This document shows, piece after piece, positions 1 through 2,086 of a stretch of 10,656 bases of DNA (position 1 is its first letter; the number at the start of each line of letters is the position of its first letter). The DNA is from Thiobacillaceae bacterium (GTDB lineage Bacteria; Pseudomonadota; Gammaproteobacteria; Burkholderiales; Thiobacillaceae). Below the pieces are notes generated by a model. It was given only the letters and a program-made list of their open reading frames with translations. It did no database searches and had not been told where the DNA came from. Made by a program: the position numbers and the translations under genes. Location: positions 1-10,656 of the forward strand of contig JAHENE010000048.1 of NCBI GenBank assembly GCA_024643305.1. The letters run 5' to 3'.

Positions 1-768
1 ATCAAACCGTTTACCGTGGCGGCGGCGCTGGAGCACGGCCTGGTGCAGCCTGACACGATGATGTATTTGCCCGACGATTACAGCGTAGGAGGCAAACATA
101 TTACCGATGTGCATTACCACCCGCAGTTGACTGTCACCGAGGTCCTGCAAAAGTCGAGCAATATCGGCGCGGTGAAAATGGCCATGCAACTCAAGCCCGA
201 GCAGTTCTGGGATGTTTTGCACCGCGCGGGTTTTGGCGAGAAGCCGGGTTCTGGTTTTCCGGGCGAGGCCAGCGGCAGACTGCGCGAGCCTGCCACCTGG
301 AAACCGGTCGAGCAGGCAACACAGGCCTATGGGCACGGTCTTTCGGTCAGCCTGCTGCAACTGGCGCGAAGCTATATGGCATTTGCCAATGACGGCGTGG
401 TAATGCCGCTCACCTTCCTCAAGCGCGAGCCTCAGGAACTCAATGGCGAGCGTGTGCTGTCAACGAGTGTGGCGCGCATGGTGCGCGCGATGATGGAGAC
501 CGTTACCCACGAGGGTGGTACTGCCACCCTGGCGCAAGTACCCGGCTACCGCGTGGCAGGAAAAACGGGCACTGCCTACAAATTGATAGACGGGCACTAC
601 AGCACCGACAGTTACATTTCTTCCTTCGTCGGCATGGCGCCGGCATCCGATCCGCGCCTCATTATCGCGGTGATGATTGACGAGCCGCGCGGCGATGCAC
701 ATTACTGCGGACAGCCGCCGCGCCGGACCTGGGGTGGCATTTGCTGCCTATCCTGGTGCTGTGCATGA
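1..768 (+). CDS. ftsI: Peptidoglycan D,D-transpeptidase FtsI (PBP3), 5' partial, C-terminus apparently replaced
   Basis: Septal class B penicillin-binding protein that crosslinks peptide stems of new glycan, acting in the periplasm with FtsW. The frame is open from base 1. The first residues, I-K-P, are the end of the S-x-x-K active-site motif, so the catalytic Ser codon lies just upstream of the window. SSN (154-162, in QKSSNIGAVK) and KTGT (562-573, in VAGKTGTAYK) are the other two transpeptidase motifs. Family-like sequence continues through SSFVGMAPASDPRLIIAVMIDEP to HYCG at about 711. After that the frame gives 18 unrelated residues rich in Cys, Trp and Arg and stops at 766-768. The usual ending (GG-VAAPVF-- and the last helix) is absent: only about 49 residues follow the Lys of KTGT, against about 95 in E. 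coli as recalled. The gene is therefore cut at both ends in this sequence. Identity is certain; whether the 3' truncation is real or an assembly error is open. Confidence 0.95.
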   Translation: MKPFTVAAALEHGLVQPDTMMYLPDDYSVGGKHITDVHYHPQLTVTEVLQKSSNIGAVKMAMQLKPEQFWDVLHRAGFGEKPGSGFPGEASGRLREPATWKPVEQATQAYGHGLSVSLLQLARSYMAFANDGVVMPLTFLKREPQELNGERVLSTSVARMVRAMMETVTHEGGTATLAQVPGYRVAGKTGTAYKLIDGHYSTDSYISSFVGMAPASDPRLIIAVMIDEPRGDAHYCGQPPRRTWGGICCLSWCCA

Positions 769-2086
769 TGGCCGTGCATTCATCCCCCAGGCGATCGCCA
801 GCGGTTCGCCGGCCATCCTGTGGGAAGAAGATCATTTCTTGTGGGACCCTGCCTGGCAAGTGCCCAATGTCGGCGTGCAGGGGCTCAAGCAATGCATCGG
901 CGAGATCGCGGCTTGCGTCTATGGTGATCCATCGAGCAAGTTGCGCATGATAGGGGTGACTGGCACCAATGGAAAAACCTCGGTCAGCCACTGGGTCGCC
1001 CAGGCTTTGTCTGTCCTCGGCACGCCCAGCGTAGTGATCGGGACACTGGGTAATGGGTTCACGGAAAAACTCTCGACTGCCGCAAATACCACGCCCGATG
1101 CCGTTGCTTTGCAGGAGGTGCTTGCCCGTTATGAGCAGGAAGGCGCGCGTGCCTGTGCCATGGAAGTCTCTTCGCACGGACTGCATCAGGGCCGTGTCAA
1201 AGGCTGTCATTTCAATGTGGCGGTGCTGACCAACCTGTCGCGAGACCACCTGGATTATCACGGCAGTATGGAAGCCTATGCCGAAACCAAGTCCGGCCTC
1301 TTTAGCTGGCCCGGCCTGGAACATGCCGTGCTCAATCTGGACGACGAATTCGGGCGAGCGCTCGTGGGCAAGGCCGGTAGCGCAAAAATCGTCGGTTACG
1401 GCATGCACCAGGGAGAAGTGGTCGCCGAAACCGTCAGGGCAGAACGCGAAGGACTGATCTTGGCGCTTCACACTGCCTGGGGCCGGGCAGAGCTCAGATC
1501 TGGCCTCCTTGGCCAGTTCAATGCCTACAACCTGATGGCCGCACTCGCCACTTTGCTGGTATCTGACGTTTCGCTGGAAGCCGCATGCAGTGCGCTTGGC
1601 CAGATCAAACCGCCAGCAGGGCGCATGCAAACACTCGGCGGCGGTACGCACCCGCTGGTGGTGGTGGATTATGCGCATACCCCGGATGCGCTGGAGAAAG
1701 TGTTGGCAACGCTGCGTCCGCTTGCCGGCGAAGGGCGCGTGATATGCGTCTTTGGCTGCGGCGGGAATCGCGACAAGGGTAAAAGGCCATTGATGGGCAG
1801 CGCTGCTTCGCAAGGTGCTGATCTTGTTTTTGTCACCAGCGACAACCCGCGCAATGAAGAGCCGGCAGCAATCATCAAAGACATTTTGGAAGGCGTGCAG
1901 GGCGAAAGCGTACGCACAGAGGTAGATCGAGCGCGCGCGATTTTTGAAGCCGTGGGAAATGCCAGGACGAATGACATTGTTCTGATCGCCGGCAAGGGCC
2001 ACGAAGACTATCAGGAAGTACACAGCCAGAAACTGAGTTTCTCTGATGCTGTAGTGGCACAGAAAGCACTGGAGGCGTGGCTGTGA
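695..2086 (+). CDS. murE: UDP-MurNAc-tripeptide synthetase MurE (meso-DAP type), N-terminus apparently truncated
   Basis: Cytoplasmic ATP-dependent ligase that adds meso-diaminopimelate to UDP-MurNAc-L-Ala-D-Glu. Numbered from ATG 695 (463 residues), it shows the UDP-binding ITADSR at 3-8, the Mur-ligase P-loop GVTGTNGKTS at 87-96, EVSSHGL at 157-163, the expected carbamylated Lys at 199 (AETKSGLF), YAHTPDALEK, FGCGGNRDKGKRP, and DNPRNEEP at 383-390, whose DNPR is the signature for meso-DAP rather than Lys. AGKGHEDYQ lies near the end. The DSR motif sits at residues 6-8, whereas in E. coli it is near residue 28-30, so roughly 20 N-terminal residues are missing. The frame opens at 677 just after an in-frame TGA (674-676), so the only starts upstream of the conserved block are TTG 677 and ATG 695. 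Neither has a good ribosome binding site, and both lie inside FtsI coding sequence. The body of the enzyme is complete; its start is not trustworthy. Confidence 0.95.
   Translation: MHITADSRRAGPGVAFAAYPGAVHDGRAFIPQAIASGSPAILWEEDHFLWDPAWQVPNVGVQGLKQCIGEIAACVYGDPSSKLRMIGVTGTNGKTSVSHWVAQALSVLGTPSVVIGTLGNGFTEKLSTAANTTPDAVALQEVLARYEQEGARACAMEVSSHGLHQGRVKGCHFNVAVLTNLSRDHLDYHGSMEAYAETKSGLFSWPGLEHAVLNLDDEFGRALVGKAGSAKIVGYGMHQGEVVAETVRAEREGLILALHTAWGRAELRSGLLGQFNAYNLMAALATLLVSDVSLEAACSALGQIKPPAGRMQTLGGGTHPLVVVDYAHTPDALEKVLATLRPLAGEGRVICVFGCGGNRDKGKRPLMGSAASQGADLVFVTSDNPRNEEPAAIIKDILEGVQGESVRTEVDRARAIFEAVGNARTNDIVLIAGKGHEDYQEVHSQKLSFSDAVVAQKALEAWL
701..711 (+). other. Probable deletion or misjoin point between ftsI and murE
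   Basis: FtsI-like sequence in frame 1 runs up to HYCG (700-711), and MurE-like sequence in frame 2 starts at ITADSR (701-718). The bases attactgcgg (701-710) fit both families: in frame 1 they belong to the HY-x-G motif of FtsI, in frame 2 they encode I-T-A of MurE. This is what recombination or a collapsed assembly between two short matching stretches would leave. From usual family lengths about 200 nt or slightly more are missing (about 45 FtsI codons, about 20 MurE codons and any spacer). The sequence shows the frame switch; the mechanism is inference. Confidence 0.75.
2071..2075 (+). promoter_or_regulatory. Ribosome binding site deciding the murF start
   Basis: GGAGG lies 7 nt before GTG 2083, the ideal distance, but only 1 nt before GTG 2077. 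It therefore favours GTG 2083, whose codon overlaps the murE stop as GTGA. ATG 2095 and ATG 2098 are further alternatives, with longer spacing (19 and 22 nt). Confidence 0.7.

Follow-up and report, generated by a model that had tools for sequence, protein, structure and literature searches.

The window, i.e., the whole stretch of DNA that was analyzed, is the complete 10,656-nt contig C67 of draft genome G000, which totals 2,081,496 bases over 311 contigs, with a completeness of 83.29%. According to our reading of the translations, the contig carries the genes ftsI-murE-murF-mraY-murD-ftsW-murG-murC-murB, with ftsI cut off at its 5' end by the contig start (Table 1). Gene order and directions, also read from translations, are the same as in an ordinary division and cell-wall (dcw) cluster. 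However, the C67 record differs from such a cluster in lacking 213 nt across the ftsI/murE boundary. The genes downstream of this join show normal read-through, and a promoter and terminator scan of positions 500-900 returned nothing useful.

Table 1 Features at the ftsI-murE join of contig C67.
Feature	Position	Strand	Evidence
ftsI (peptidoglycan D,D-transpeptidase) fragment, homology ends at HY	1..705	+	PF00905 positions 46-282 of 299; 84-91% identity to 7 same-genus loci
In-frame ATG inside ftsI, possible start of a shortened MurE (MHITADSR)	695..697	+	Sequence
Join point, AC compatible with both native flanks (6/7 relatives on each side); ~213 nt absent compared with nearest relative	704..705	+	Comparison with relatives
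murE without start and ~20 N-terminal codons	704..2086	+	Mur ligase domains; 85% identity to L005; sole strong MurE match in G000
Alien tail of FtsI frame (murE DNA in other frame) and chance stop	706..768	+	Translation, alignment with relatives

The last FtsI-like residues (HY) are encoded by positions 700-705 and are followed by 20 codons unlike FtsI and a stop at 766-768. MurE homology starts at the ACT at position 704, in a frame other than that of FtsI, and the join contains no Ns. Compared with the nearest relative (locus L005; 91% identity in FtsI and 85% in MurE), 213 nt are absent, comprising the end of ftsI with its stop codon, the murE start, and approximately 20 murE codons. The first-pass annotation had estimated a loss of about 200 nt at this boundary and had proposed aligning relatives to measure the missing length; the 213 nt found against L005 agrees with that estimate. 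It had also described FtsI homology as stopping about 45 residues early, at HYCG. The early end was borne out, since 47 more FtsI residues follow the equivalent of base 702 in all seven same-genus loci, but the last fitting residues are HY, as the C (base 706) differs in all seven. Similarly, the tail that it counted as 18 unrelated residues has no resemblance to FtsI but spans 20 codons (706-765). MurE homology does begin at once and in another frame, as it had noted, and its figure of about 20 missing residues agrees with the approximately 20 murE codons absent compared with L005.

We searched for MurE in 40 relatives and in the draft itself, and the loci of 29 of the 40 relatives were cut out and all measured; the remaining 11 comprised nine with good MurE matches, plus G005 and G033 with poor ones. 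FtsI and MurE homologies are 1 nt apart in the window, compared with 188-284 nt in all 29 measured loci, where FtsI extends 43-59 residues beyond the equivalent of base 702. All seven same-genus loci align with the window up to and after the gap. In six of them, an ATG or GTG precedes the position equivalent to base 704 by 23 MurE residues, and the seventh (L010) has a TTG at that start position, by our own count on the translation. A DNA search of nine genomes, including the draft itself, found no match covering the joined form in the eight other same-genus drafts. Seven of these eight matched one or both sides of the join, and G005 gave no match; the match in G004 passes the join by 27 nt, yet the G004 locus is intact in the alignment. 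The same short FtsI and MurE ends in relatives, which the first-pass annotation had named as the sign of a natural arrangement, occurred in none of the 29 measured relatives, all of which have the longer form.

The ten bases attactgcgg (701-710) had been proposed to fit both proteins, as a short matching sequence through which the two ends were joined. Only the AC at 704-705 turned out to fit both flanks clearly, and support for the rest of the ten bases was weak. Against the FtsI flank of the same-genus relatives, nine of the ten bases match in five loci and eight in two, with a mismatch always at 706 (the C of HYCG; 7/7), while positions 703-705 fit in six of the seven. Against the MurE flank, only five to eight of the ten bases match: position 701 differs in all seven relatives and 703 in six, and 704-705 fit in six. 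The two native flanks of the relatives agree with each other at five to seven of the ten bases. Because of the FtsI-register misfit at 706 and the MurE-register misfits at 701 and 703, we place the frame switch at 704-705, and the exact overlap at the join is probably just this AC. The flanks compared are those of the relatives rather than of the organism itself, in which a longer imperfect match may exist. As a signature of the join, a ten-base microhomology has support at two bases only. Overlaps of around ten bases suffice for gap closing in one common assembler, a behavior on which we put no weight; 'gap closer' was not used among the matches listed in a literature search on such assembler behavior.

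Other collapsed joins were sought in a sample of 60 of the 311 contigs of the draft (407 kb), of which 56 were readable. Most were picked by number, and C67, C147, and C210 were in the sample because of earlier matches (C147 through PF00905, and hence not at random). A scan for split genes used sequence from G002 (99% complete, ~1.06 Mb readable) and from G006 (182 kb) as reference. The 56 readable contigs contain seven gaps of exactly 10 Ns, one of which (C147, locus L135, 5208-5217) lies in a rodA-like gene where G002 has 48 nt. In C115 (L211), an unmarked loss of 62 nt at ~6893 throws a metallo-hydrolase gene out of frame; this gene is intact in seven of the eight other genomes of the genus (including G002, the genome of the query itself), with only weak matches in G005. 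Among 83 genes compared with G002, three splits were found, namely the N gap in the rodA-like gene, the 62-nt metallo-hydrolase loss, and a third, lying upstream of a gene start, which was set aside; no split was found in 30 genes compared with G006. Apart from the window, unmarked losses of at least 20 nt thus amounted to one in 81-83 genes against G002 and none in 30 against G006, and unmarked collapses are not very frequent in this draft. The event in the window is outside these counts, since genes that lack their tail do not count as splits. Two of the seven 10-N gaps had flanks that could be placed on a sampled relative, one at L135 (48 nt) and one at L148 (projected -83); the latter value was set aside, there being no matching duplicate at the gap. 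At the 10-N gap in L143, the 20 bases on its left reappear 92 bases to its right, resembling an unmerged overlap.

When G002 itself was the scan target, no splits were detected in sets of 70 and 72 genes; under looser limits there were one and two, respectively (three in 142 tests), and no loss of at least 20 nt was among them. With G006 as the target, nine splits were detected in 101 gene tests (3/27 and 6/74), eight of them at N bases; five were losses of 55-152 nt and four were 1-base frame changes. Splits at or near Ns were seen in conserved genes of five G006 loci (L152, L153, L164, L166, and L167), with losses up to 152 nt. These represent collapses like those of G000, here in a second draft of the genus, in which 22 of the 24 N runs are 2 bases long. 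The looser scan also gave an unmarked 59-nt loss in G006, which rests on a short match of 17 residues. In G000, it retained the 62-nt loss and missed the rodA gap, presumably because the match went to a related gene. Two drafts of the genus therefore carry collapsed joins, which are mostly marked by Ns, with at least one unmarked, in G000.

We consider the ftsI-murE join to be a local assembly or gap-closing error rather than a biological change, with a probability of roughly 0.88, which stayed the same after the looser-limit scan. An assembly or consensus error had been among the options offered by the first-pass annotation, and it is the best supported of them, given the further collapsed joins in this draft. 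Two ends separated by ~213 nt on the actual chromosome, one in ftsI and the other in murE, would have been butted together without Ns, which would remove the intervening end of ftsI and start of murE from the record. The organism itself would most likely have the ordinary ftsI-murE arrangement. We infer that the join arose in an assembler rather than in the cell, and that the draft was derived from a metagenome. What counts against an assembly error is the lack of Ns at the join, the low frequency of unmarked losses among the genes scanned, and the non-random choice of C147, which holds the rodA gap; moreover, a biological deletion of 213 nt that left a 2-nt overlap would be indistinguishable.

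Such a deletion, present in some or most of the sampled cells or in dead or degrading DNA, would have removed the C-terminus of FtsI and the N-terminus of MurE. A clean join, normal read-through of the downstream genes, and the lack of an intact copy in the draft would all be consistent with it. We nevertheless regard it as unlikely, given that both ftsI and murE are essential in cell-walled bacteria, that the stretch is kept in all 29 measured relatives, and that other joins in the same draft are collapsed. It is highly improbable that the population truly carries the deletion and that its cells manage with FtsI broken and MurE shortened, e.g., in a wall-poor form or with another transpeptidase serving in division. 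If real, the deletion would call the need for an intact FtsI into question, and nothing here favors it. The proteins themselves bear on a further reading, in which the arrangement is natural and working, with MurE starting at the ATG at 695 inside ftsI and both shortened enzymes functional. The predicted MurE retains all three Pfam domains (N-terminal, middle, and C-terminal), and its Mur_ligase N-domain, matched from profile position 7 of 95, still scores above the cut-off (27.4 versus 21 bits) in a protein ~20 residues shorter than those of same-genus relatives. However, the PF00905 transpeptidase profile match in FtsI ends before the profile does (Table 1), and an intact FtsI orthologue aligns ~40 residues further to a solved FtsI, so that the transpeptidase domain is incomplete. 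With FtsI deprived of ~45 residues, most of them alignable to the solved structure, and given 20 alien ones instead, in a form that no measured relative has, a working arrangement seems extremely improbable.

Alternatively, a second, intact ftsI-murE copy could be present in the cell, with C67 a decaying duplicate. We queried G000 with the PF00905 profile, the MurE protein, the intact FtsI of a relative, and the DNA of a relative over the missing stretch, and found no second FtsI or MurE in its 311 contigs. The only strong MurE match was that of the window, and the DNA over the missing stretch matched the two flanks in the window and nothing else in G000. Outside the window there were only a protein on C147 and one on C210, which, judging from their lengths, are presumably PBP2-like and PBP1-like, respectively, and weak matches of other Mur-type ligases. 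FtsI residues 1-300 were found on no other contig of G000, where the PBP2-like protein gave only weak matches. As the draft is 83% complete and itself lacks FtsI residues 1-300, the absence of a second copy is weak evidence, and such a copy could be missing from it. Nevertheless, the second copy that the first-pass annotation had considered, and the intact ftsI and murE that it suggested looking for elsewhere in the assembly, did not come to light in this incomplete draft; with one FtsI and one MurE in G000, and with C67 otherwise normal in its gene order between ftsI and murB, we judge this explanation very unlikely.

According to a passage of PMC7111523, metagenome drafts contain local assembly errors, which propagate incorrect protein-coding sequences and are recognized by a lack of perfect read support. 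C67 would resemble the local errors of that passage in that its sequence is wrong at one site of a draft, with incorrect protein-coding sequences as the outcome. In contrast to the read-support criterion given there, the join in C67 was judged from assembled sequences alone. The case cautions that essential genes can look fused or truncated in drafts through silent collapses without Ns. Except for the claimed ten shared bases, the initial observation at this locus is accurate, and its biological interest is low.

The first passes of the split-gene scan flagged 32 of 246 and then 17 of 128 reference frames, with antisense open frames and start-site differences mixed in. Eight flagged cases were read by DNA alignment or six-frame translation, and only two of them, the gap in the rodA-like gene and the loss in the metallo-hydrolase gene, stood up as G000 collapses. 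The split in L148 lies upstream of a gene start, the flag in L179 was due to N bases in G006, and that in L143 was a 1-base frame difference from G002, which the looser scan showed as well; three other flags that were read look like start or low-complexity tail differences. The split in L210 was in an antisense frame opposite a gene that is presumably trpB-like, judging from its bases. The gene at 11860-12320 of L143, compared with 7405-7818 of L267, reads through in G000, and the 1-base frame change is relative to its G002 counterpart.

Some relatives showed unusual MurE matches. In G011 (C15), G018 (C63), and G037 (C1), MurE and MurF-like matches fell in open frames of equal length (1450, 1096, and 942 aa, respectively), which look like natural MurE-MurF fusions. 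MurE had no good match in G005, and in G033 its matches were limited to three partial ones, in frames of 667 aa. Among solved structures, the window MurE matched best to 8f5d, a fusion protein.
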